In this document: one piece after another, positions 19,436 to 31,316 of the stretch | How the letters are laid out: each line of letters opens with the position of its first letter | Numbering within the stretch: position 1 is the first letter of the stretch | Source: Desulfosporosinus acididurans | GTDB lineage: Bacteria > Bacillota > Desulfitobacteriia > Desulfitobacteriales > Desulfitobacteriaceae | Direction: 5' to 3' | Length of the DNA stretch: 64,000 nucleotides | Assembly (NCBI RefSeq): GCF_001029285.1 | Contig: NZ_LDZY01000008.1 | Span: 62,001-126,000, forward strand | Program-made: the position numbers and the translations under genes | Notes under the pieces: generated by a model | The model's database searches: none | The model's input: the letters and a program-made list of their open reading frames with translations, nothing else | What the model was told of the DNA's origin: nothing

Positions 19436-21228
19436 GGGGGCTGTGTGAAAACACAGCCGAGAGAAACCGCTAGAAATCATTAGATTTCGGCGGTTTCTCC
19501 GCGTATTCGGAAGAAAAATGGTATAATTATGACAAGGAAAGAACGAATGAGGCAGGTGTTTTCTCCTTGTCAAAACCGGGTAAAAAAGTACATAACCAAG
19601 TTGTTTTTAAAGAGTATAATCAGAATCAACTGAGCTTACCAATAGATTTGGAATGTCTTATTCCTCCCAATCATATGGTCAGAGTGGTAAACTCTGCTAT
19701 CGATCAAATGAATCTGGAACCTCTTTTAGCTAAATATCCGGGAGGTGGACGTTCGAGTTATCATCCCGTCATGATGACCAAACTGATCGTTTATGCCTAT
19801 GCTGATAAAACGTTTTCTAGCCGCCGCATAGAAAAGGCAGCCCGCGAAAACATCATGTATATGTGGTTGTGCGGAGGAAATAGTCCGGATTTTAAAACCA
19901 TCAACAGCTTTCGGGGCGAACGTATGAAAGATGTGTTGGTTGAGATTTTTAGTGAGGCTGTTGAACTTTTACATAAACAAGGCTATATCAAGCTGGAAAA
20001 TTATTTCTTAGACGGGACAAAAATAGAAGCCAATGCTAATAAGTACAGCTGGGTCTGGGGAAAATCAACCAAGCGCTACAAAGAAAAGCTGCGGGAAAAG
20101 TGCCGAGAACTCTTTGAATTTGCGGAGCTAACCAATCAGAAAGAAAATGAGGAGTATGGGGACCGGAACCTGGAAGAACTAGGAGAAGAAAAACCGATTG
20201 ACTCCCAGGCTATAGAAGAAGCGGTTAAAAAGATCGATGAACGATTGGCCCAAAACCCAAAGGAAAAGAAATTCATTAAAGTTAAACGAGTCTTACTGAA
20301 AGATTACTTACCTCGTATGAAGAACTACGAAAAACAAGAGGAACTGCTGGCAGAGCGCAACAGTTATTCGAAAACGGATACAGACGCCACCTTCATGCGA
20401 ATGAAAGAAGATGCTATGAAGAACGGGCAATTAAAGCCGGGTTACAATGTCCAAATAGGAACAGAAAATCAATTTGTCGTAGGATATAGTATCCATCAAT
20501 CAGCAGGCGATACCAATTGCATGAAAGAACATCTGGAAGAATTGAAGAAAAACTTAGGGGGGAAACTCCCTGCCAACATTGTTGCCGATGCGGGATATGG
20601 CAGTGAAGAGAATTACGAATATCTGACTCAAAAGAACCTTGGGAACTATGTAAAATATAATACCTTTCATAAGGAAGCAACGGCCAAGTGGAAATCCGAT
20701 CCGACGCTGGTTCAGAATTGGCTCTATGATAAGGAGAAGGATGAATACACGTGCGGGTTTGGGAGGGTTCTAAGGTTCAAGCACATAAAAACTCAGAAAA
20801 GCAAAAGGGGCTATCAAAGTACAATCCGAGTCTATCAAAGTGATGATTGTCAAGATTGTCCCTACCGCAAACGTTGTATTAAGCAAAGTAATAATGCGAA
20901 TTTTAAGAAGCAGATCAACATTAACCCTAAAGGCAATGAACTAAAAGCAGAGGCAAGGGCTAATCTGACCAGCGAATATGGGATAAAAATGCGTAGCTTA
21001 AGACCTATAGAGGTGGAAAGTGTCTTTGGAGATATCAAAGGCAATTTTGGTGTGCGACGATTTATCCTAAAGGGATTGGAAAAGGTCAAGCTGGAGTGGG
21101 GATTACATTGTATTGCCCATAACATGAGAAAACTGACTGTCGTCTTAGGATAGACGGTCAGTCAGTTTAGCCTTCCCCATTCGAAACCTATTGAGGGGCT
21201 GTGAGAAACAAAGTTTCAACACAGCCCC
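19436..21228 (+). mobile_element. IS1182-family insertion sequence, apparently intact
   Basis: About 1.79 kb bounded by imperfect inverted repeats, GGGGGCTGTGTGAAA at the left and its complement TTTCAACACAGCCCC at the right, with one full-length transposase gene. The flanks are AAAAA on the left and TTTTTT on the right, so no unambiguous target duplication can be read; the ends may extend a few bases. Each end can form a hairpin (GGGGCTGTG with CACAGCCCC on the right). A TATAAT at 19522-19527 could drive the transposase. Confidence 0.85.
19567..21153 (+). CDS. IS1182-family transposase
   Basis: A DDE transposase of 528 aa. The N-terminal region LSLPIDLECLIPPNHMVRVV and the PGGGRSSYHPVMMTKLIVYAYADK stretch are typical of IS1182/IS5-like enzymes, as are FLDGTKIEANANKYSWVWGK and VADAGYGSEENYEYL carrying acidic catalytic residues. 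A zinc-ribbon-like region (CQDCPYRKRCIK) precedes the C-terminal SVFGDIKGNFGVRRF segment with the last acidic residue. No frameshift or internal stop is seen, so the element may be active. The start is TTG at 19567, the only start consistent with the conserved N-terminus. Confidence 0.92.
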   Translation: MSKPGKKVHNQVVFKEYNQNQLSLPIDLECLIPPNHMVRVVNSAIDQMNLEPLLAKYPGGGRSSYHPVMMTKLIVYAYADKTFSSRRIEKAARENIMYMWLCGGNSPDFKTINSFRGERMKDVLVEIFSEAVELLHKQGYIKLENYFLDGTKIEANANKYSWVWGKSTKRYKEKLREKCRELFEFAELTNQKENEEYGDRNLEELGEEKPIDSQAIEEAVKKIDERLAQNPKEKKFIKVKRVLLKDYLPRMKNYEKQEELLAERNSYSKTDTDATFMRMKEDAMKNGQLKPGYNVQIGTENQFVVGYSIHQSAGDTNCMKEHLEELKKNLGGKLPANIVADAGYGSEENYEYLTQKNLGNYVKYNTFHKEATAKWKSDPTLVQNWLYDKEKDEYTCGFGRVLRFKHIKTQKSKRGYQSTIRVYQSDDCQDCPYRKRCIKQSNNANFKKQININPKGNELKAEARANLTSEYGIKMRSLRPIEVESVFGDIKGNFGVRRFILKGLEKVKLEWGLHCIAHNMRKLTVVLG

Positions 21229-21364
21229 TTTTTTATGTAGATCAATCTTCTGAAAATCGTTTTATTATATAAAAATATGACTAAATCCTATTTTGAGAGG
21301 AAGGAGTCCCTGTAGATTTGGCGAATTCTGATAAATGCTGTAGCAAGAAAGGTAAAAATCAGCT

Positions 21365-23188
21365 ATGAAAACGTCTTCATTTGGCAAGTATGAAAGAATC
21401 ATTAATAAAGGGACTATGAATATCATTGTTTTTGCTTGTGTTATTATTGTTATCGCGATACTGGCTACAGGCATATCCAGCTATATTATCGTAAAAAATG
21501 CCATGATCGAGAAACTGCAGAAACAAGATCTAGTCTATATTTTAAAGTCTATTTCGGCTCAAATTGATGATAGAATCGATAGGGCGAAGGAAACGTCCTT
21601 AATTCTTGCCGATAATCCCGAAATAATACAATGGTTTCAAGAGGGTGAGACGGACGAAAACTTTAAAAAATTGTTTATAAAACAGATGACTGATGTTGCT
21701 AAAACCTTGAATTATACTGTTTTTTTCACAAATCGAAGGACAGGTCATTACTGGACAAATTCTAATTTGCTTACCGATACCATGAGTAAGGATAATATTT
21801 CGGATCGCTGGTTTTATGATACTCTGGCTTCAGACCGAAAAATTACCCTAAACATAGATCATAACGTAGTACTTAATCAAACGAATTTGTGGATTAATAC
21901 CCTGATGGGTGATCCTCATGATCCAGCGGGAGTTGCTGGGGTAGGGGTGGACTTGCAAGATATCTCCAAAGAATTTGGCAATTATAAAATAGGAAATGGG
22001 AGTAATCTGTGGCTTATTGATACGACGGGAAAAATAAGTATCTCGGATGACGTTGAGCAAAGCGGAGGACGTCTCTCGGAATATCTACCTGCGGGGATAT
22101 TTACTGATATTCTAAAAAATGCTTCCAATGGAGAGTCCATGAAGATTGTTAGCTATGTCGGTCAAAATGGACGAAAGGATTTGGTTTACCAAAAGTTAAA
22201 ATCATGTAATTGGATCCTGGTCTTTCAAATTAACCGATCAGAGACCTTAGGACTGCTTAATTCCATTATGGTCAATACCTTAGTGAGTGTTGTCATAGTC
22301 CTTATTTTCTTGATTCTCGTTTTTTATACGGTTTCTTCTAAAATCGCTAATCCGTATAAGAAAACACTTCAACTAAATCTTGAATTAGAAAATGAAATCG
22401 AAGAAAGAACTACTGAACTACGTGAACAAAATTCAAAGATGACAGAGAGTATCTATTATGCCAAAACAATTCAAGAATCAATTTTGCCTTCTTCGGAAGT
22501 TCTGCAAAGGATTCTAGGCAGTCACTTTGTTCTCTGGCGACCGAGGGATCTAGTCGGTGGTGATTTCTATTGGCTTAGAGAGACAAAGATTGGCTGGATT
22601 TTGGTAGTAGGTGATTGTACAGGACACGGCGTACCGGGTGCTTTAATGACAATGGCAGTTAACTCGATACTTAGTAATATCGTTTCTAAAAACGAAGTAA
22701 TAAGCCCGACTGACATGATCAAGGATCTTAATCATCAATTAAAAGATGCTCTTAACAAGGAAAAAGGTGATTATGCAACAGATGATGGCCTTGATGCTGC
22801 TATTTTGAGTTATGAAAACAGTGGAAGACTATTGTTTGCGGGAGCTAAAATGAATATGTATGTAGCTTCCTCCGGGCAGATGACAGTTTATGAAGGTCAT
22901 AGGAATGGGATTGGTTATATAAAATCAATCTTTAATGATGGAATTTCCGATACCATAGTAAGTCTTAGGCCTGGCGTCCGAGTATATTTGACAACAGACG
23001 GTTATGTTGATCAAAACGGAGGCCCTCATAATTATTCCTTTAGTAAACGCAGGTTCCGAACCAATCTTCTTAACACCTTGGATCTTCCAATAACGAAACA
23101 AGGCGAATGGCTGGAAAACGAACTCACTTCTTATCAAGGTCAGGAACCTCAGAGAGATGATATTACTGTTCTTGGTATAGAGTTTTAA
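21365..23188 (+). CDS. membrane sensor with PP2C/SpoIIE phosphatase domain (SiaA-like)
   Basis: A 607-aa membrane protein: TM helix at about 19-43, an extracytoplasmic sensor of dCache type (about 44-295, with FTNRRTGHYWTNSN), a second TM at about 299-325, a coiled coil (about 335-370), and a cytoplasmic PPM/SpoIIE Ser/Thr phosphatase domain with the metal aspartates in DLVGGDFYW and VGDCTGHGVPGALM. In the Pseudomonas Sia system, SiaA dephosphorylates SiaC. The two genes directly downstream are SiaB- and SiaC-like, which makes that role likely here. It starts 130 bp after the IS1182 element, so its promoter may have been affected by that insertion. Confidence 0.88.
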   Translation: MKTSSFGKYERIINKGTMNIIVFACVIIVIAILATGISSYIIVKNAMIEKLQKQDLVYILKSISAQIDDRIDRAKETSLILADNPEIIQWFQEGETDENFKKLFIKQMTDVAKTLNYTVFFTNRRTGHYWTNSNLLTDTMSKDNISDRWFYDTLASDRKITLNIDHNVVLNQTNLWINTLMGDPHDPAGVAGVGVDLQDISKEFGNYKIGNGSNLWLIDTTGKISISDDVEQSGGRLSEYLPAGIFTDILKNASNGESMKIVSYVGQNGRKDLVYQKLKSCNWILVFQINRSETLGLLNSIMVNTLVSVVIVLIFLILVFYTVSSKIANPYKKTLQLNLELENEIEERTTELREQNSKMTESIYYAKTIQESILPSSEVLQRILGSHFVLWRPRDLVGGDFYWLRETKIGWILVVGDCTGHGVPGALMTMAVNSILSNIVSKNEVISPTDMIKDLNHQLKDALNKEKGDYATDDGLDAAILSYENSGRLLFAGAKMNMYVASSGQMTVYEGHRNGIGYIKSIFNDGISDTIVSLRPGVRVYLTTDGYVDQNGGPHNYSFSKRRFRTNLLNTLDLPITKQGEWLENELTSYQGQEPQRDDITVLGIEF

Positions 23189-23218
23189 ATTATGATTACA
23201 GGAAGAGGGGAAAATGGG

Positions 23219-23764
23219 ATGATTCACCTTCAACAGCTAAAAAGATCACTTGAAGAATACCGTGTTTTGATCTGCTTTTCAGGCCAATTCTCCCAGGGCA
23301 TTGTAGAACAGCTCTGCGATTCTATCAAAGGACACTTGAGTGAAGGCCCAGGAACAAAGCAAAACCCCATGAGAGTAATCTCAATTTTTGTCGAACAGGC
23401 TCAAAATATTATAAATTACAATCAAGTAAAAAAGAATCATAAATATTATGATCAATTTCTAGAATCTAGTATTGTGACCATAGGAAAAAACGGGGAAAAT
23501 TTTTTTGTGACATCCGGTAACATTATTGATAACAATGACTTGCAGCCTCTCCTAAAAAAAATTGATTACCTCAATTCTCTTGAACCAGGAGATTTAAAGA
23601 CTCTTTACAAAGAAGTTATGAAAAATGGAGGATTTGAAGAACTTGAACGAAGTGCAGGCTTAGGTCTAATCCATATGGCTCGCAAATCAAAATCACCTAT
23701 TGAGTACGAAAGCTATCCGATTAATGAGGAATTATCCTATTTTCAAATCAATGTGAATAGTTAG
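23219..23764 (+). CDS. SiaB-family protein kinase
   Basis: A small kinase-like protein (about 181 aa) of the SiaB/DUF6272 type, predicted to phosphorylate the SiaC-like protein encoded next. The N-terminus has the FSGQFSQGIVEQLCDSIKGHL helix and RVISIFVEQAQNIINYNQ, the region corresponding to the helices and N box of histidine-kinase-like ATPase folds, and GLGLIHMARKS near the C-terminus resembles a G box. I prefer the ATG at 23219 with AAGAGGGG upstream over the ATG at 23192. Spacing to siaA-like is short (30 nt) and to siaC-like 13 nt, which indicates one operon. Confidence 0.85.
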   Translation: MIHLQQLKRSLEEYRVLICFSGQFSQGIVEQLCDSIKGHLSEGPGTKQNPMRVISIFVEQAQNIINYNQVKKNHKYYDQFLESSIVTIGKNGENFFVTSGNIIDNNDLQPLLKKIDYLNSLEPGDLKTLYKEVMKNGGFEELERSAGLGLIHMARKSKSPIEYESYPINEELSYFQINVNS

Positions 23765-23777
23765 GAGTTGGAGAAGG

Positions 23778-24152
23778 ATGGAGAGGCTATTCATCAAGGA
23801 ATCAAAAAGTACTCCCCTTGTAGATTTCGATTCAGACAAGGGCTTGCTAGTTTTAAAAGGGCAATCGTATCCGGAAGACCCTTTTGCTTTTTTCAAACCC
23901 ATAATAGAGTGGGTTAAAGAGTATTTAGCAAGTAATCCGAAGACTGTTTCTCTGGAATTTACTTTGACATATATTAATACCAGCAGTTCTAAGTGCATAA
24001 TGATGCTTTTGGATATCCTGGAAGAGTCCTTTGACAAGGGATTAACCATCGATCTTAAATGGTTTTGTAATGAGGAAAATGAATATGAGCAGGAATGTGC
24101 TCAAGAATTCCAAGAGGACTATACATTTCCTTTTGAAATAGTACTAGTTTAA
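23778..24152 (+). CDS. SiaC-family phospho-regulator (DUF1987)
   Basis: A 124-aa anti-anti-sigma-like switch protein. It has the family stretches KGQSYPEDPFAFFKPIIEW and LTYINTSSSKCIMMLLDIL; the Thr in NTSSSK is residue 68, the same number as the phosphorylated Thr68 of Pseudomonas aeruginosa SiaC. In that system unphosphorylated SiaC binds and activates the diguanylate cyclase SiaD, and a GGDEF protein is encoded directly downstream here. Start ATG at 23778 after GGAGTTGGAGAAGG. Highly acidic C-terminal part. Confidence 0.9.
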   Translation: MERLFIKESKSTPLVDFDSDKGLLVLKGQSYPEDPFAFFKPIIEWVKEYLASNPKTVSLEFTLTYINTSSSKCIMMLLDILEESFDKGLTIDLKWFCNEENEYEQECAQEFQEDYTFPFEIVLV

Positions 24153-24204
24153 TGGCTATCCAATGATAAGTTCTTTTAGGATTTGGAGGAGGTGGTGATG
24201 TCCT

Positions 24205-25827
24205 TTGAAAGATCATAAAATGTTCAACAATATTTTTGAAGAAGAGATGGCCGTTTATCAAGAGGCCAGGGATTTTTTAAAAAAAGGCAATTTAACGTAT
24301 ACGGGTTTATTGGCTAAATTTGATAGTTTAATTAATCAGTATTGCCGTTTAATCAATATAACTCGACGGCTCTGCAGCATCAGCGATGTACAAAGCAGAG
24401 ACTTAAAGCGGAAAGAACGAGAGATACAGAATATCTTGGATCATTCAGATCAAGGTTTTTTAACCTTTGGAAAGGATTTGCTGATTCATAAAGAGCATAG
24501 TTCGGAATGTATCAGGATATTTGGCCGCAAGGTCGTTCATGAAAATATATTGGATCTTCTGCGCAGCGAAAATGAAGATCAAAACAGACTTATTGCTGAT
24601 GTTTTTCATAAGGTTTTTGATCTTTCTCCCGGGGAGGTTCAGCTGTCTTATATTAACGAACTGCCTAATTTGTTGAAGATTCAAGGAAATTTTATTAATA
24701 TTAAATACAAAATGATTTCTGATGGTTTAGACTATCGAAATCAGGCCTTAATGGTCATTCTGACAGATATCACTGAAAAACGAAAAACAGCCGATCAGGT
24801 CTTATTTCTTAGTTACCACGACAAGCAAACATCTCTGTATAACAGGGCCTACGTTGAAAGCATCATTCCTCAACTTCAAATCGAGTCAAATCTTCCCTTA
24901 AGTATTGTCATGGCTGATTTAAACACTTTAAAACTTGTTAATGATGTCTTTGGACACGAAACCGGTGATAAGCTTATTGTTAATGCGGCAAAGATATTCC
25001 TTTCTTGCTGCCGTAAGAGCGACATTGTAGCTCGGTGGGGCGGAGATGAATTTGTAATGATACTTCCTGGCGCGAATCAGGAGGTTTGTGCGAGAATATG
25101 CAATAACATAAAGTCAATGTTTATGACCCAGTCTGCAGATCCTGTTGATCAGAGCACTTCCCTGGGATCAGTTACTCTCGACAATTGGAAAACAGATATA
25201 ATCAGCTTAATCGGTGCGGCGGATCGTGTAATGTATAAGAACAAGCTAACTGAGCGGAAGAAAACAAGGGAAATGTTTGTTTCCAGTGTCGAGAAAGTTA
25301 TAGAGATTAAATGTCCTTCCTATCTGGAGCACAATGCTCGAGTTGAAGCCTTAGCCCGTTCATTTGTCAAGCTGCAGGGAGTTGAATTAAACTCGCAAGA
25401 AATGGATCATTTGATCTCCCTGGCTCGTTTTCATGATATTGGCAAGGTAGCTATTCCTGGCGAACTCCTGAAAAAAAACACCTCTCTGACAGAGGACGAA
25501 TTTAAAATTATACGTCAATACCCTGAAGTTGGCTATAGGCTGGCTCATTCCATGGGAGAGCCGCTCTTGGCTCAGTCCATCTTGGCTCTTCGGGAATTTT
25601 GGAATGGAAAGGGTTATCCGCGCGGTCTAAAAGGAGAACAAATTCCTCAAAGTTCCCGTATTATTTCCATACTGGATGTGTATGACATTATTACTCATGA
25701 TCAACCCTATAGAAACAAGAAAACAAAGGAAGAAGCTTGTCAAGAATTGCAGCGAGGTTCGGGTGTTCAGTTTGATCCTCAGCTGACAAATCTTTTTGTT
25801 AATAACTTACAATCACTGTTATCCTAG
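24205..25827 (+). CDS. GGDEF diguanylate cyclase with degenerate HD-GYP domain (probable Sia effector)
   Basis: A soluble 540-aa protein: N-terminal helical stalk (1-75, with NITRRLCSISDVQ), a PAS-like domain (about 75-195), GGDEF domain (about 205-345) and HD-GYP-like domain (about 355-540). The GGDEF motif is intact at 279-283 and an RxxD product-inhibition site (RKSD) lies five residues before it, so c-di-GMP synthesis with feedback control is expected. The HD pair is present (His410-Asp411) and the GYP is kept at 470-472. However, the usual HHE before it is LRE (462-464), so phosphodiesterase activity is doubtful. TTG start at 24205 with AGGAGGTGG upstream. It stands where siaD does in Pseudomonas. 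Confidence 0.88.
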   Translation: MKDHKMFNNIFEEEMAVYQEARDFLKKGNLTYTGLLAKFDSLINQYCRLINITRRLCSISDVQSRDLKRKEREIQNILDHSDQGFLTFGKDLLIHKEHSSECIRIFGRKVVHENILDLLRSENEDQNRLIADVFHKVFDLSPGEVQLSYINELPNLLKIQGNFINIKYKMISDGLDYRNQALMVILTDITEKRKTADQVLFLSYHDKQTSLYNRAYVESIIPQLQIESNLPLSIVMADLNTLKLVNDVFGHETGDKLIVNAAKIFLSCCRKSDIVARWGGDEFVMILPGANQEVCARICNNIKSMFMTQSADPVDQSTSLGSVTLDNWKTDIISLIGAADRVMYKNKLTERKKTREMFVSSVEKVIEIKCPSYLEHNARVEALARSFVKLQGVELNSQEMDHLISLARFHDIGKVAIPGELLKKNTSLTEDEFKIIRQYPEVGYRLAHSMGEPLLAQSILALREFWNGKGYPRGLKGEQIPQSSRIISILDVYDIITHDQPYRNKKTKEEACQELQRGSGVQFDPQLTNLFVNNLQSLLS

Positions 25828-25896
25828 GATAATTTAGGAGGCTGTTTTTTGTAAAGCAAGAACGGGAGCAGTTTGATTCTAAAGGAGGTTAGCAGC

Positions 25897-26217
25897 TTGA
25901 TCACTGTTGATGCAAAGGCACTTCGCTATCTTCAGGAAAGAACGTCATCCGTAGTACTTGGCTTGGAATTAAATCCGTCAATGGGTGGCTGAGCTTGTTC
26001 GGCAGAGCACGTAACAGGTAGTTACGTTCCCAAAATTTATCTGAGAGAACCGGATACTAACGAACTCTTTAATTTTAAGCTGCAAGAAATCGGGACACTA
26101 AAACTATATTATTCTCCAAGAATCGGGGTCGCACAGGGACATCAAGATATTAAGATTAAACTTAGAAAGCTGTTGTTCTTTAATTGGCTAACGTTAGTAG
26201 GAGCTAAGATACTTTGA
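25897..26217 (+). CDS. HesB-like (CC/Se motif) selenoprotein with in-frame UGA at codon 32
   Basis: The frame reads from TTG at 25897 (GGAGG 8 nt upstream) to TGA at 26215, 107 codons, with one internal TGA at 25990-25992. Reading that codon as selenocysteine gives a GG-U-A-C-S motif. This matches the redox or metal loop of small HesB/IscA-like proteins from Clostridia in which Sec replaces Cys. The flanks fit that fold: an ITVDAKALRYLQ N-terminus and GTLKLYYSPR followed by IKIKLRKLLFFNWL. Just after the UGA is a SECIS-like hairpin. Coding character continues unchanged on both sides of the UGA, which argues against a pseudogene. Exact function is unknown; thiol/selenol redox chemistry or metal binding is inferred. 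It follows the Sia-like cluster by 70 bp. Confidence 0.82.
26009..26027 (+). promoter_or_regulatory. bacterial SECIS-like hairpin
   Basis: ACGTAAC pairs with GTTACGT around the loop AGGTA. The loop starts 24 nt after the UGA at 25990. Stem length, distance and a GGU in the apical loop match known bacterial SECIS elements (the E. coli fdhF loop also contains GGU). It would recruit SelB with Sec-tRNA. Confidence 0.75.
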
Positions 26218-26241
26218 AAACAGGTACCTTAGACGTTTTTG

Positions 26242-26298
26242 GGCAAAACAACAACTCCGCATCACTTATGGAAAGATGGTGCGGAGTTGTTGTTTGCC
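26242..26298 (+). terminator. large hairpin terminator after the selenoprotein gene
   Basis: GGCAAAACAACAACTCCGCA at 26242 pairs with TGCGGAGTTGTTGTTTGCC ending at 26298 with minimal mismatch, a stem of about 20 bp. A short T-rich segment (TTGGCTAAAAATTTGTTTT) follows. Confidence 0.7.
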
Positions 26299-26319
26299 TT
26301 GGCTAAAAATTTGTTTTAA

Positions 26320-26373
26320 TTTATCCAGTTGTATCTGAAGCCCCGATGTTCAGCTTTAGCTGAACGAGTTCAC
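26320..26373 (+). repeat. IS605-like element, copy D (54-bp deletion form)
   Basis: This minimal copy keeps only the left border (TTTATCCAGTTGTA) and the whole right end (GAAGCCCCGAT, hairpin GTTCAGCTTTAGCTGAAC, tip GAGTTCAC). It defines both outer boundaries of the family well. Confidence 0.8.
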
Positions 26374-26418
26374 TTGAAATGTCCAGATGAGTAGTTAGGA
26401 TCTAAATGAAATGTGGAT

Positions 26419-27717
26419 TCACTGTCCCTTTAGATCTTGAAATCCTTGATAAACAAGGTCAAAAAGTTGTTTAAGGTCTTGTACTTCAACACAAGAGAAG
26501 GCAACGCGCACATCGCTCTCTCCCAGGGAAATTACACCTATGCCATAATGATCAAGGAGATGAAGGCGCAAAGCTTCAGCATTCACGCCATGTTTAAGTT
26601 TCATACACATAAAGTAACCAGAATTAAAGGGATAATAGTCCCAGGCATCGTCATAGCTTCCTTGACTAAGGATTTCTTTGACTTTAGTGGCGCGACTTTT
26701 TAAAAGTTCGAATTTCTGTTTTTTTTGTGTTTGAAACTCTGATGACTGAAGGGCATGTAAAACAAAGGATTGAGCGGGGTGGGAAGCACTGGAAATTGCT
26801 CCCCGAATACTTCCTAAAGCTTTGTTTTCTAAGGCATCCAATATTGCCGGAGACTCGCTGGCAAAGGTAATAAATCCAACTCGAAAGCCCCAGACAAATT
26901 CTTCTTTTGTGGCTCCGTCAACTTTGATGGCCAGTATTCTGGGATGGATATTGGCAATCCGGGCAAACAGGGATTCTTTGATGGAGTCCTCGTAAAATAA
27001 CCCAAAATAGGCGTCATCAGTAAGAACAACTAAGTTCATACCTTCCTGGGCAACTTCTTTCAGAACATCTATGATCTCAGCTGCTTCTTTTTCATTTGGA
27101 GTATACCCTGTTGGGTTATTGGGAAAGTTCAGCAGTACGACGGCTTTTCCGTGTTCTTTTTTAGAAAGTATAGCTTTTTTCAAACCCTGGCTATTAAAAC
27201 TTCCCCGTTCGTTATAGAAAGGAAAGGTGACGCTTTTTGCTCCTCGACGAACTCCGAAGATAAGATTGTAATTCCCCCATAATTTATCCGGTAAAATTAG
27301 AGGATCATTTTCATTCATGAAAAGATCGGCGGCAATGCTTAATCCATGAGTTAAAGCATTTGTGACAATGGGATTGCTGAAGGATTTATTCTTTAGAGAA
27401 GGGTTTTCCTGGAGCATTTTCTTTTGCCATAACTGCCTCAATTCAGGTTTGCCTGCTGGAGGTGCATAAGGATATAGATTCTTAGGATCATAATCAGACA
27501 ATGTATCGTGAATTACAGGCAAGAACATCGGCTGATTTCCTTCCGTTGCAATCCCTATGGTGGCATCAAATCGATGGGCTTTCTGCTTAGCTTCCGCAGT
27601 TTGAGTTAAAATCCCTTTCGGATAATACATATTCCTCCCAAGATCAGACAGTAATTCGTAGACATGAGGATTTTCCTTTTTTATGCGGTCATTTAACTCT
27701 TGAGCAATTTCATTCAT
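26419..27717 (-). CDS. class I/II pyridoxal-phosphate aminotransferase
   Basis: A fold-type I PLP enzyme, 432 aa. Visible features: NPIVTNALTHGLSIAAD (cofactor phosphate region), LLNFPNNPTGYTP, the aspartate in VVLTDDAYFGLFY, and the PLP lysine likely in VDGATKEEFVWGFRVGF. The subgroup is uncommon: the N-terminus begins with MNEIAQELNDRIKKENPHVYELLSDLGRNMYYPKGIL, quoted here only to show its LGRNMYYPKGIL signature. I choose the ATG at 27717, which has AAGGGAGAAGAG upstream, over the ATG at 27807. Amino-donor and acceptor are not predictable. Repeat copy D lies just beyond its stop. Confidence 0.83.
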   Translation of the reverse strand: MNEIAQELNDRIKKENPHVYELLSDLGRNMYYPKGILTQTAEAKQKAHRFDATIGIATEGNQPMFLPVIHDTLSDYDPKNLYPYAPPAGKPELRQLWQKKMLQENPSLKNKSFSNPIVTNALTHGLSIAADLFMNENDPLILPDKLWGNYNLIFGVRRGAKSVTFPFYNERGSFNSQGLKKAILSKKEHGKAVVLLNFPNNPTGYTPNEKEAAEIIDVLKEVAQEGMNLVVLTDDAYFGLFYEDSIKESLFARIANIHPRILAIKVDGATKEEFVWGFRVGFITFASESPAILDALENKALGSIRGAISSASHPAQSFVLHALQSSEFQTQKKQKFELLKSRATKVKEILSQGSYDDAWDYYPFNSGYFMCMKLKHGVNAEALRLHLLDHYGIGVISLGESDVRVAFSCVEVQDLKQLFDLVYQGFQDLKGQ

Positions 27718-27962
27718 GAACTCTTCTCCCTTTCTTAAGTAAGCCGATCTCTTTGCTGTAAGTGAAATAAACTCCAACTTGCTTGAAATTGAAATTAGTG
27801 TATGCATTTGAACAAGAGAGCTGGATCAATCTCTAGTATCATTTTTAGAGTTGTTATGATATAAGTAACTAAATTTTACACTAAAATGACGGTTTCCTCT
27901 ACTAATGAAGGATAAAAATTTTGGAGATTATATCTTTTGGGGACTATTAACTTTCGTTCTAA

Positions 27963-28034
27963 GTGAACTCGTTCAGCTAAAGCTGTGGGAATCGCTCCCA
28001 CTTGTAGAAGTGTGGAGTCGTACGAATCGATAAA
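27963..28034 (-). repeat. IS605-like element, copy E (internally deleted)
   Basis: On the minus strand this copy has the right tip GAGTTCAC and part of its hairpin, then the left hairpin CTCCACACTTCTACAAGTGGGAG joined directly, and ends at TTTATCG. The body is deleted. It lies between two aminotransferase genes on the same strand. Confidence 0.7.
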
Positions 28035-28040
28035 AGGTAC

Positions 28041-28074
28041 TAAAAAACTAGAGCTGGAAGCAAACGCTTCCAGC
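28041..28074 (-). terminator. terminator of the minus-strand aminotransferase
   Basis: GCTGGAAGC at 28053 pairs with GCTTCCAGC ending at 28074 around AAAC. On the minus strand the stem is followed by TCTAGTTTTTTAG, a good intrinsic terminator for the gene at 28128-29303. Confidence 0.75.
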
Positions 28075-28127
28075 CTTGTTCATCGAGAGTTGTTTTTTCT
28101 CAAGGGGATGGCCTTTATCCGGCAGAC

Positions 28128-29303
28128 TTATTTTAGTTTGGCTAAAGCAGTTTCGATTCGCTCTAAAGCCTTTTGGATATTCTCTACGGAGTTTGCATAG
28201 GAGAAACGGAGATAACCTTCGCCATAAGAGCCAAATGAGGTCCCCCCCAGACAGGCAACGCCGGCATCGTTCAAGAGATAGTCCGCAATTTCCTTACTGT
28301 TTCTGTTGAAGGATTTAAAGTTAGGGAAAACATAGAAGGAACCTTCTGGTAAGAGGCAGCTAACTCCTGGGATTGAATTTAAGCCATTGACCATAAGGTC
28401 GCGGCGTCGTTTGAATTCGGTAACCATTCTGTCGACGTCTGTTTGCGGTCCGGTGAGAGCTTCCTTGCCGGCCATTTGAGTAAAAGCCGAGGTACATGAA
28501 TTTGAATTAACCATTAACTGAGAAATCCGATCCGCAATCTGCGCAGGCATTACTCCATAACCTAACCTCCAGCCTGTCATGGCATAGGTCTTGGAAAATC
28601 CGTCGAGAATGATTGTCCAATCCTGCATACCGGGTAATGAAGCAATGGAAAGGGGTTGTGTATTCCCATAAACGATTCGGTCATAAATCTCATCAGATAG
28701 GACAAGGATTTCTTGACCTCTTACTAAGTCTGCAATAGCTTTGACATCCTCATTAGTTAGTACTCCGCCTGTAGGATTGCCGGGAGAATTAATAATGAGC
28801 ATTTTAGTCTTAGGGGTAATCAGCTGAGCCAGTTCGTTTACGTCCAGGCGGAATTGATTTTCTTCCCGCAGGGGTATGGGGACTGGCTTGCCGCCTACAA
28901 AGCGGATAACTGATTCATAAATGGGAAAGCCGGGGTTAGGATAAATAACTTCGTCACCGGGATTTACAGTTGCCAGAATGGAAAAAAACATAATAGGTTT
29001 TCCTCCTGGAACTATGACGATGTTTTCCAGTGATGTGTCTACGTGTTTATGACTGCGAATATACTCGGCAATGGTTTCCCTGACTTCGGGAATACCTGGT
29101 GCAGGCGTATAGTGGGTGTAACCGTTTGTGAGAGCAAAGCAAGCAGCATCAATAATATTTTTGGGTGTGTCAAAATCCGGTTCGCCGATTTCTAAATGAA
29201 CGATATCCTTTTCTTGGGCTTCCAGAGCTTTGGCTTTTGCCAAAACTTCAAAGGCAGTTTCTGTACCTAACAGGGACATTCTTTCAGCAAATAACGGTTT
29301 CAT
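28128..29303 (-). CDS. class I pyridoxal-phosphate aminotransferase (AspC/PatA-like)
   Basis: A fold-type I aminotransferase of 391 aa. Motifs: HLEIGEPDFDTPKNI, GYTHYTPAPGIPEVRE, VVPGGKPIMFFS, INSPGNPTGGVL, LSDEIYDRIVYG and the PLP lysine in DGFSKTYAMTGWRLGY. These place it with aspartate/branched-chain-type aminotransferases of subgroup I-gamma; substrate uncertain. The start is the ATG at 29303 with AAAGGAG upstream on the minus strand. Divergent from norC, with about 240 bp between them. Confidence 0.9.
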   Translation of the reverse strand: MKPLFAERMSLLGTETAFEVLAKAKALEAQEKDIVHLEIGEPDFDTPKNIIDAACFALTNGYTHYTPAPGIPEVRETIAEYIRSHKHVDTSLENIVIVPGGKPIMFFSILATVNPGDEVIYPNPGFPIYESVIRFVGGKPVPIPLREENQFRLDVNELAQLITPKTKMLIINSPGNPTGGVLTNEDVKAIADLVRGQEILVLSDEIYDRIVYGNTQPLSIASLPGMQDWTIILDGFSKTYAMTGWRLGYGVMPAQIADRISQLMVNSNSCTSAFTQMAGKEALTGPQTDVDRMVTEFKRRRDLMVNGLNSIPGVSCLLPEGSFYVFPNFKSFNRNSKEIADYLLNDAGVACLGGTSFGSYGEGYLRFSYANSVENIQKALERIETALAKLK

Positions 29304-29448
29304 AGAGTGGCTCCTTTGCAATTTTATTAAAAATAAGATCAAGAAGCATTATTTAAAACAAAGTTTCTAATATTTTTAACCCTTAATTGAAGCTTTATGT
29401 CTTGGCGTGATTACGGCAGCCGTTTCCCAGTATTCAATTCAAGTAAAT

Positions 29449-29464
29449 TAACACTAGAGTGTTA
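29449..29464. promoter_or_regulatory. palindrome TAACACT-AG-AGTGTTA upstream of norC
   Basis: A perfect 7+7 inverted repeat with a 2-bp centre, about 80 bp before norC and far from the divergent aminotransferase start. It is a plausible operator for the regulator of the norCB operon. It does not match the FNR/DNR, NsrR or NorR consensus I know. Confidence 0.45.
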
Positions 29465-29541
29465 GTTTGGGTCTGTATACTTTTGCAACAAAGGTTAACA
29501 CTACCATAAATCATAATGGACAGAATTGGAAGGGAAAATCT

Positions 29542-29937
29542 TTGAAAATGCGAACCTTTTTGTTACTCAGCAGCTCATCCTTTGCATTATTCGTAGGTAT
29601 TATCCTGATATCATCTCGCCTACCTTCTCCAATGCCGGAACAGGCTGTGGAGGGCAAACTTGTCTGGCAAAAACATAACTGTATAAGCTGTCATACCTTA
29701 TTCGGCAATGGGGGATATGTAGGAGAAGACTTAACAGTTATCACACGGAAGGAGACCCCATCCCAAATCGTAGACTATCTTATGAAGCCGCCGGTGGTTC
29801 CTCCGAACAAATACACTCATCACCCGGGTCTTGCTAAAAGTGACGCGCAAAATTTGGTGCATTATCTGGAGTTCATCAGTACCATACCAACATTAGGGTG
29901 GCCGCCTCAGCAAGAGAAGGCGGGAAAAGAATCATGA
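29542..29937 (+). CDS. norC: membrane-anchored cytochrome c, nitric oxide reductase subunit NorC-like
   Basis: Electron-input subunit of cytochrome-c type NO reductase. An N-terminal membrane anchor (LLLSSSSFALFVGIILIS) is followed by one haem c site CISCH within LVWQKHNCISCHTLFGNGGYVGEDL, a close match to NorC, with a distal Met/Pro region less clear. Start is uncertain: TTG at 29542 has GGAAGGG at 7 nt, ATG at 29548 has it at 13 nt; a longer TTG frame from 29467 lacks a ribosome site. The stop overlaps the norB start (ATGA). Confidence 0.87.
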   Translation: MKMRTFLLLSSSSFALFVGIILISSRLPSPMPEQAVEGKLVWQKHNCISCHTLFGNGGYVGEDLTVITRKETPSQIVDYLMKPPVVPPNKYTHHPGLAKSDAQNLVHYLEFISTIPTLGWPPQQEKAGKES

Positions 29938-31316
29938 AATTGCTTAGTTTTTTACCTTTTCTGGGAAAAACGCAAAAACCTGTGGTTCGAAAACAGCAGT
30001 TTTTAGCTCAAAAAATAAGCCGCAGATATTGTTTTACGGCAGTAGCGTTATTTGCCCTGCAAAGTATAGTGGCTGTGACTGGTGCCATAGATTTGGTAAT
30101 ACCTGATTTACCATCCCCGATTCCTTTTGAGTTCGGCAGGGCAATTCATTTGGGGATGGCTGATCTTTGGCCTCTTATTGGTACTATGGGTATGGTCTAC
30201 TATTTTATTACAGCAGAGCTTGACCGGGAGATCTATTCTCCCCCGCTGGCTCGATGGCAGTACTGGATTGTTATCTTATTCAGTTTGGCTATTTTTACAA
30301 GTTTATCCTTTAAGATTGGAAATGGCCGGGAATTCCTGGAAGGATTGCCCGTCCTGTATATGGGGATTTGTATTTCCTTAGCTTTGGCCTCTTATAATCT
30401 TCTTCGAACGTTATTCATGGTTAAAAATAATATTACGCCGGCAGCTGCCGTCATGACCGTAGGGATAATCTTTTTGCTGCTGTTATTGCTGCCGAATACG
30501 ATTTTTTATAGTAATCCTATTACGGATGAGGCAACTAAGTTCTGGGTTGTTCACTTATGGGAAGAAATGGCCTTTGAGCTTACTTCTGCCGGCTTTATTG
30601 CGACCTTTTATGTTATTTCTGGACTGGCTGATCGCGCTAAAATAGAAAAGTGGCTTTATCTTGAGGCCTCTTTAGCTGTTGTTGGAGGCTTGTACGGGAC
30701 CGGACATCATTATTATTGGATTGGCTTTCCCGCCGTTTGGTTAGCCATTGGCTTCTTGGTTAGTATTGTAGAAGTCATCCCTGTGGGACTATTAGCCCAT
30801 ATGACCTACACAGGATTAAAATCTAAAAAGATTAGGAGCCGTCGAGAAAAGTTGACACTATGGCTGGTGCTTAGCAGCCTTTTTTATCATATTACGGGTG
30901 CATCTCTCTTGGGTCTCTTAATGAGCATACCTTGGATAAACCTATATATGCACGGGACTTATGTTACCTCCGGTCATGCCCACTTGGCGTTATTCGGCAG
31001 CCTTGGTTTTGTCGTTTTAGCAGGGTGTTATTACATCCTCAGCCGCGGAAGTGAGCCAACTCTTAAAGGGTACAAAAGCGGCATTTTAGCGGTCATCTTG
31101 CTAAATGTTGGTTTGCTGAGTATGGCTTCGGCTTTATTAACCGCTGGCCTTAAAGAGACTTACCTGTGGCGATATTTGGGTATGGATTTTGAACAAGTGC
31201 GGCTGCAGTTGAATCTCTATTTGTTTATAAGGGCCTTCGGGGGAACGATTTTCGCTCTCGGAGATCTTTTCCTGTTCTGGCTTATTTATAAAACATGGAA
31301 ACAAACATCTCATTAA
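29934..31316 (+). CDS. norB: nitric oxide reductase, large subunit NorB-like (haem-copper oxidase superfamily)
   Basis: A polytopic membrane protein, 460 aa with about 12 TM helices, reducing 2 NO to N2O. Haem and FeB ligands are recognisable: AIHLGMADLW (low-spin haem His), VVHLWEEMAFELT (FeB His with the Glu pattern of NorB), GTGHHYYWIG (two FeB His) and HGTYVTSGHAHLALFG (haem ligands). The GTGHHYYW motif distinguishes NorB from proton-pumping oxidases. I choose the ATG at 29934, which overlaps the norC stop. NO detoxification is the likely role in an anaerobe, rather than full denitrification, because no nir or nos genes are nearby. Confidence 0.88.
   Translation: MKLLSFLPFLGKTQKPVVRKQQFLAQKISRRYCFTAVALFALQSIVAVTGAIDLVIPDLPSPIPFEFGRAIHLGMADLWPLIGTMGMVYYFITAELDREIYSPPLARWQYWIVILFSLAIFTSLSFKIGNGREFLEGLPVLYMGICISLALASYNLLRTLFMVKNNITPAAAVMTVGIIFLLLLLLPNTIFYSNPITDEATKFWVVHLWEEMAFELTSAGFIATFYVISGLADRAKIEKWLYLEASLAVVGGLYGTGHHYYWIGFPAVWLAIGFLVSIVEVIPVGLLAHMTYTGLKSKKIRSRREKLTLWLVLSSLFYHITGASLLGLLMSIPWINLYMHGTYVTSGHAHLALFGSLGFVVLAGCYYILSRGSEPTLKGYKSGILAVILLNVGLLSMASALLTAGLKETYLWRYLGMDFEQVRLQLNLYLFIRAFGGTIFALGDLFLFWLIYKTWKQTSH

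Follow-up and report, generated by a model that had tools for sequence, protein, structure and literature searches.

Comparative sequence analysis points to a selenoprotein gene with a predicted IscA/HesB-like product in Desulfosporosinus acididurans

Comparative analysis of a 64,000-nucleotide stretch of Desulfosporosinus acididurans DNA, hereafter the window, indicates that the frame at 25897-26217 is very probably (at a probability of roughly 0.9) a working selenoprotein gene, from an anaerobe of Desulfosporosinus type, whose product has a predicted IscA/HesB-like fold; the recoding is deduced from computation. Codon 32 of this frame, a TGA, would be read in this organism by SelB-dependent insertion of selenocysteine. 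An earlier note on this DNA had proposed a selenoprotein here, and the proposal is borne out by a TGA present in 18/18 close homologues, a related cysteine form (L123), a hairpin downstream of the TGA and the selenocysteine machinery of the genome.

The gene lies on the forward strand and encodes 106 amino acids. Its TTG start is preceded at 7 nt by a ribosome-binding site (AAGGAGGT, 25882-25889, forward strand), a spacing equal to that in the 92%-identical relative L100. The final codon, a TGA at 26215-26217, is taken as a normal stop because L100 has TAG there. The in-frame TGA occupies 25990-25992 and falls in the motif GGUACS, in which U is residue 32 (U32). The codon of Cys34, the only further cysteine or selenocysteine residue of the protein, follows at 25996-25998, and this cysteine is invariant in the close-subfamily alignments A1 and A4. 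Frame, start, ribosome site, TGA codon, motif and final stop are all as the earlier note had described them. Beyond the gene, a strong inverted repeat between two convergent genes (26246-26295, forward strand) is probably a terminator; the terminator scan did not call this repeat, whose T run is poor.

Read as an ordinary stop, the TGA of codon 32 would leave a peptide of 31 to 39 amino acids, followed by a frame that is open by chance or belongs to a decayed gene. The standard ORF listing (30 amino acids or more) agrees with such a reading, as it shows one piece of 39 amino acids that stops at the TGA and, past that codon, no piece in the frame of the gene. Homologues of the whole frame speak against it. 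A search of 60 genomes, that of the window included, located 15 places in 13 genomes; 14 are full-length, each with one TGA inside (14/14), and the last is a contig-end fragment without the site. A second genome collection gave 16 loci, namely 15 full-length ones, all with the TGA (15/15), and one fragment. Since these two sets overlap, they were pooled into 18 distinct full-length close sequences, window included, and the TGA is kept in every one. They come from Desulfosporosinus (including D. metallidurans, D. lacus and D. nitroreducens), from G034, which represents a different genus in that family, and from two MAGs of Bacillota and one of Negativicutes.

After the TGA, the window sequence differs from L100 with a dN of 0.048 and a dS of 0.258 (dN/dS 0.19), and from L004 with a dN of 0.21 and a dS of 1.06 (dN/dS 0.20). 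Taken together, the homologues and these low ratios mean that selection acts on the protein sequence encoded past the TGA, which argues against an ordinary stop, as does the retention of the TGA. The earlier note had also considered that the frame might normally be two separate genes; the conserved protein sequence and purifying selection past the TGA, along with the uninterrupted frame of L123, speak for one.

L123 was obtained by searching 398 phylum genomes, a sample from a larger group, with a profile; 30 of them matched, and at most 12 candidates were scored in the genomes listed. Among the matches listed it is the nearest cysteine form (in genome G367, 88.7 bits). It reads GGCCCKGDLIWGSYVP opposite GGUACSAEHVTGSYVP of the window, with cysteine at U32, an ungapped alignment between GG and the conserved proline and a single uninterrupted frame, a further point against an ordinary stop. 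The alignment across the UGA with cysteine at U32 that the earlier note had anticipated does therefore exist. In the alignment A2, made of 33 chosen rows of the wider family, the U32 column holds cysteine or selenocysteine in 33/33 rows, the CC forms being uncertain by one residue. We claim no swapped U/C pair, because L124 (C-A-U) and the CC forms also allow alignments shifted by one or two residues. L063 and L065 (genomes G079 and G080), fetched but kept outside A2, have neither residue at the site despite scoring over the cut-off of the family model NF041239, so the Cys/Sec site is not essential to every relative. In a tree of the 33 rows, 16 of whose 30 inner branches stay open, L123 groups with the close subfamily (88/77).

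Downstream of the TGA, a 7-bp stem (ACGTAAC/GTTACGT) and an AGGTA loop form a SECIS-like hairpin at 26009-26027 (forward strand; loop 26016-26020). Stem and loop are those given in the earlier note, which had the stem starting 24 nt after the UGA; this distance did not hold, the stem beginning after 16 intervening nucleotides and the loop after 23. The published bSECIS model, as given in PMC13188914, has a loop of 3-9 nt, a stem of 4-16 bp, a G within the first two nucleotides of the loop, 16-37 nt between UGA and loop, and a free energy of -7.5 kcal/mol or lower. The window hairpin agrees with the model in its loop, its stem, the place of the G and the distance from the UGA. Its energy is -6.6 kcal/mol for the hairpin alone and -10.5 from the UGA to the stem end, and the -7.5 of the model is reached only with the UGA-proximal part.

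The hairpin is present in both the minimum-energy and the centroid structures of a 72-nt fold of the region, and for the flanks 25985-26035 a different fold is preferred over it. The folding energy of the 72-nt region is usual against shuffles (z = -0.58), a second point that would suit an ordinary stop. Since single-sequence folding did not set the hairpin region apart from shuffles, a comparative test was used. The hairpin has a counterpart in 18/18 close homologues, and in 17 distinct rows its pair cells are intact in 119/119 cases. Two of the seven pairs are compensated, with both partners changed (G-C to A-U; A-U to G-C), four never vary, and RNAalifold finds the identical hairpin unprompted. 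The codons under the hairpin are frozen, with Ser42 as AGT in 13/13, Arg42 as CGT in 5/5, Val39 as GTA in 16/16 and Gly41 as GGT in 17/18; over codons 38-45 the mean codon identity is 0.76 vs 0.34 expected, and over the 84 other columns it is 0.51 vs 0.40. Because TGA and hairpin recur together in all the distinct close homologues, the hairpin goes beyond chance, and its conserved and compensated pairs substantiate the SECIS-like element of the earlier note. The compensated pairs also count against an ordinary stop at codon 32, a reading that we now regard as scarcely credible.

A uniform scan, with an energy threshold of -5 or lower, returned a qualifying hairpin in 18/18 close homologues, 21/27 distant selenocysteine forms, 2/18 cysteine forms and 10% of 900 shuffles, with a p-value of 5e-5 that overstates independence because several rows are close relatives. 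The scan took 27 of the 32 distinct distant selenocysteine loci, the near copies L053, L133, L137, L139 and L143 being left out, and 18 of the 20 cysteine or non-selenocysteine loci, L063 and L065 being left out because they have no cysteine at the site. Among the 27 distant forms, the hairpin was absent from L128, L136 and L144 and weak in L069, L124 and L142. L123 holds a hairpin of -8.3, unlike that of the window in sequence and 28 nt away, which is counted among the two cysteine forms.

From the Sec/Cys column to the conserved proline there are 7-8 residues in 10/16 distant selenocysteine rows of A2, whereas the window subfamily has 13 (12 where one residue is deleted), about six extra. 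The SECIS loop lies 23 nt past the UGA in 8 of those 10 short-spacing rows, where by eye it falls within the codons of a P-A-V-Y-type strand, and at that distance too in 17/27 of the distant forms scanned. In the window subfamily it is encoded by VTGSY, inside the extra stretch, and the loop again lies at 23 nt (20 with the deletion). The trend suggests that the RNA distance was held while the encoding residues changed; it is no law, because most distant rows with a different length show no such hairpin in the scan. A change in coding length with the SECIS-UGA spacing kept would mean that RNA geometry constrains protein sequence.

The source genome (4.6 Mb, 47 contigs) carries the complete set of selenocysteine genes that the earlier note had named: selA (565.6 bits), selB (379.6 bits), three copies of selD over the cut-off and, about 1 kb from selB, the tRNA-Sec gene selC with anticodon TCA. 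The tRNA-Sec model gave three matches over its gathering score, the best being the TCA one and the second a tRNA-Ser. Two of the three selD genes (L034, G000:C10:85584-86510; L035, C7:190800-191717) themselves hold an in-frame TGA, which makes it probable that two of the SelD copies are selenoproteins as well.

Under the selenoprotein reading, ribosomes would start at the TTG at 25897 and reach the UGA of codon 32, where SelB, carrying Sec-tRNA and drawn in by the hairpin 23 nt further on, would insert selenocysteine. Translation would then run to codon 106 and yield a product of predicted IscA/HesB-like fold. In the profile alignment, Sec32 falls on the first cluster-ligand cysteine of IscA, which it would replace, and Cys34 follows two positions later; together they could form a redox-active site, or one that binds metal or sulfur, in the service of oxygen-sensitive anaerobic metabolism.

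The fold was assessed on an AlphaFold model with a pLDDT of 85.4, lowest at the selenocysteine loop (residues 31-40, mean 52). Foldseek ranks 1-6 were all IscA or SufA, with a best E of 4.5e-3 and none under 0.001, and the fold matches include 1r94, 2d2a, 1s98 and 1x0g. VIA-align gave a Z of 8.8 and an rmsd of 2.4 over 82 residues, the first unrelated row standing at a Z of 2.7. The window protein is accordingly described here as having a predicted IscA/SufA-like fold. In profile comparison, A2 aligned with the HesB-like alignment A3 at a probability of 82%, placing U32 on the Cys/Sec of the HesB-like proteins; the close profile A1 alone showed no similarity to A3 (probability 1.3%), and A2 matched no solved structure by sequence. 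Pfam gave no match for the window protein, PF01521 included; 4/33 A2 rows matched PF01521 at E up to 1, the best at 0.0044.

Upstream of the gene, the window carries at 21365-25827 an operon encoding a SpoIIE phosphatase, a DUF6272 protein, SiaC and a GGDEF/HD protein, which we take to resemble a SiaABC-type partner switch with c-di-GMP output. The earlier note had called this position unusual. We compared 18 neighbourhoods, with 0.2 to 9 kb of upstream DNA and some of them short, and found the operon ahead of the gene in the window and L100 alone (2/18); L004 shares the outer neighbours c1 and c2 with L100 but lacks the genes of the operon. A c-di-GMP link was thus rejected, and the operon is considered an incidental neighbour. 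Downstream, an aminotransferase gene is common to the window, L100 and L101. A search of window positions 20000-30000 with Rfam at gathering thresholds found nothing.

In the relatives, the gene keeps other company. A protein of about 200 amino acids, here called c0, is encoded directly upstream of it in L104, L109, L111, L113, L114 and L011 and one gene upstream of the cysteine form in G367, so that seven relatives adjoin c0 in all (copies at L109:188-787, L104:5364-5960, L114:5416-5994 and L150:5461-6075, among others). Across the 60 genomes, c0 gave three credible matches, all adjoining this gene, and a fourth (E 8.8e-4) that holds four stops. Across the 398 phylum genomes it gave two, both among the four that score >85 bits with A1 among the matches listed (p 8e-5, taking both 398-genome draws as the same genomes). 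The genome search found no c0 in the source genome. The c0 model is almost all helix, with no meaningful match in the PDB (best E 0.12); in Pfam and NCBIfam it has weak matches below cut-off, to unrelated families.

In 4/19 sequences (the 18 close ones plus L123), namely G034, G013/L104, L114 and G367, the gene is part of a 4-hydroxybutyrate cluster encoding a 4-hydroxybutyryl-CoA dehydratase-like protein, a 4-hydroxybutyrate CoA-transferase-like protein and a membrane protein without family. The G034 dehydratase matches 1u8v at E 3.4e-230, and the G013 copy is 89% identical to it. The L114 dehydratase clusters with the L104 copy, and the G367 copy has an equal weak HpaB match and was otherwise assigned by eye. 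The G034 CoA-transferase matches 3eh7 at E 7e-169. A NifU-like protein accompanies 3 of the 4 clusters, in G034 (PF01106), in L114 (by eye) and beside the G367 cluster on the other strand (by eye); none was seen in the L104 cluster. L111 and L113 adjoin thiolase-, acyl-CoA dehydrogenase- and Etf-like genes (L111 by eye, the L113 genes clustering with them). The membrane protein at L151:2374-3786, with 470 amino acids and no Pfam or NCBIfam match, is possibly an uptake permease. Near the cysteine form in G367, a putative selenium transporter of YedE type is encoded at L150:8177-9259 (TIGR04112, 505 bits).

4-Hydroxybutyryl-CoA dehydratase belongs to the Fe-S flavoenzymes and is sensitive to oxygen. 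We infer that the 4-hydroxybutyrate clusters of four relatives and the c0 neighbour of seven point to Fe-S or redox handling of anaerobic enzymes; in the relatives, these clusters speak for a protein that assists such enzymes, and they offer a concrete lead to the function of an obscure group. A dedicated maturation or repair factor for Fe-S centers (or for sulfur/selenium) would fit this setting, working with c0 on 4-hydroxybutyryl-CoA dehydratase-type enzymes; in D. acididurans, where no such operon surrounds the gene, it would serve another client. It would account for the four dehydratase/CoA-transferase clusters, the NifU-like protein in three of these, and the restriction of c0 to 2/398 phylum genomes, both with this subfamily at the same locus. 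We judge it unlikely all the same: a close dehydratase (85% identity or more) occurs in 4/13 of the 60 genomes with the gene and in 5/47 without it, a weak co-occurrence that is not significant (p 0.09); the source genome is without c0 and has dehydratase relatives of only 44% and 40%; and the lone Sec/Cys pair stands without the other IscA ligands. Less likely again, in our estimation, is an IscA-fold protein that uses selenocysteine as a cluster or metal ligand and, with c0, matures or repairs the oxygen-sensitive Fe-S flavoenzymes of 4-hydroxybutyrate metabolism; if true, the selenocysteine-ligand and c0 reading would represent a selenium-dependent branch of Fe-S biogenesis.

The same residues could instead belong to a selenol-thiol redox protein, a reductase or a peroxide/disulfide relay, that borrows the IscA fold and forms a Sec32-Cys34 selenenylsulfide. 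The close subfamily keeps Cys34 without exception, at +2 from the selenocysteine or at +1 where one residue is deleted, and many distant members keep a cysteine within three residues of the site. However, some distant members, L052 and L147 among them, have selenocysteine with no cysteine nearby, and no reductase partner gene was noticed; we entertain this redox protein as a tentative possibility. For the function of the selenoprotein as a whole, Fe-S or thiol chemistry seems the likeliest role, and we put it forward with reserve.

Selenoproteins with cysteine and selenocysteine relatives in an already curated superfamily are familiar. What appears new, within the searches made, is the diverged subfamily, the placement of its SECIS and the link with c0 and 4-hydroxybutyrate; no paper on a GGUxC subfamily was found in a literature search that was incomplete and does not establish absence from print. 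The analysis adds a well-supported selenoprotein subfamily whose window member falls under the curated cut-off and is missed by plain ORF calling.

Among known systems, the A-type Fe-S carriers IscA and SufA (PF01521) resemble the window protein as the top matches of its predicted model. IscA has three conserved cysteines, one internal and two in a C-x-C near the C terminus. Since the window protein has only U32 and C34, it differs in the absence of the C-terminal pair, and only one of the usual ligands has a counterpart.

The HesB-like family TIGR01911 shares with the window protein a similar size, the IscA/HesB fold (predicted) and, in the wide-profile alignment, a Cys/Sec matched to its selenocysteine. 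True membership would be consistent with that fold and with the 82% probability of the wide profile. We nevertheless hold it to be very improbable, because the model (cut-off 66.35 bits) gives no hit on the window protein up to an E of 1, the UxGP motif is absent, GGUACS standing in its place, and the source genome has two other places with weak TIGR01911 matches (52.1 and 47.2 bits), one with a TGA. The second of these scores belongs to another HesB-like frame, G000:C1:349912-350178, which is the one with the TGA. The label 'HesB-like' in the earlier note is therefore right for the fold, where IscA and SufA lead the matches, and wrong for the family.

The nearest curated family is NF041239, the sole NCBIfam match of the window protein (29.8 bits vs a cut-off of 40, E 4.6e-7). 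Scanned as proteins, 14/14 close homologues match this model; in genome searches 6/14 close places pass the cut-off (for example G034 at 48.4 and G019 at 45.1), and the window's own place was not recovered. With a score under the cut-off and only six close places above it, the window protein is a diverged relative of NF041239 and not a member. The source genome also encodes a Cys-Cys paralogue of NF041239 type (L017, G000:C3:113058-113345; 27.8 bits, below cut-off). NF041239 (Moor_selen_rel), named 'CC/Se motif family (seleno)protein', appears in Table 1 of PMC13188914 as a hypothetical protein, with Moorella thermoacetica as the species of the prediction; the same source gives the motifs CxxU for NF041239 and UxGP for TIGR01911, and no entry describing a GGUxC subfamily was seen in that table. 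NF041239 differs from the window subfamily in its motif (CxxU vs GGUxC), in a spacing from selenocysteine to proline of mostly 7-8 vs 13 residues, and in a SECIS carried by P-A-V-Y-type codons vs VTGSY. Both have a selenocysteine or cysteine in one shared conserved column of A2, and in both the loop lies mostly 23 nt from the UGA.
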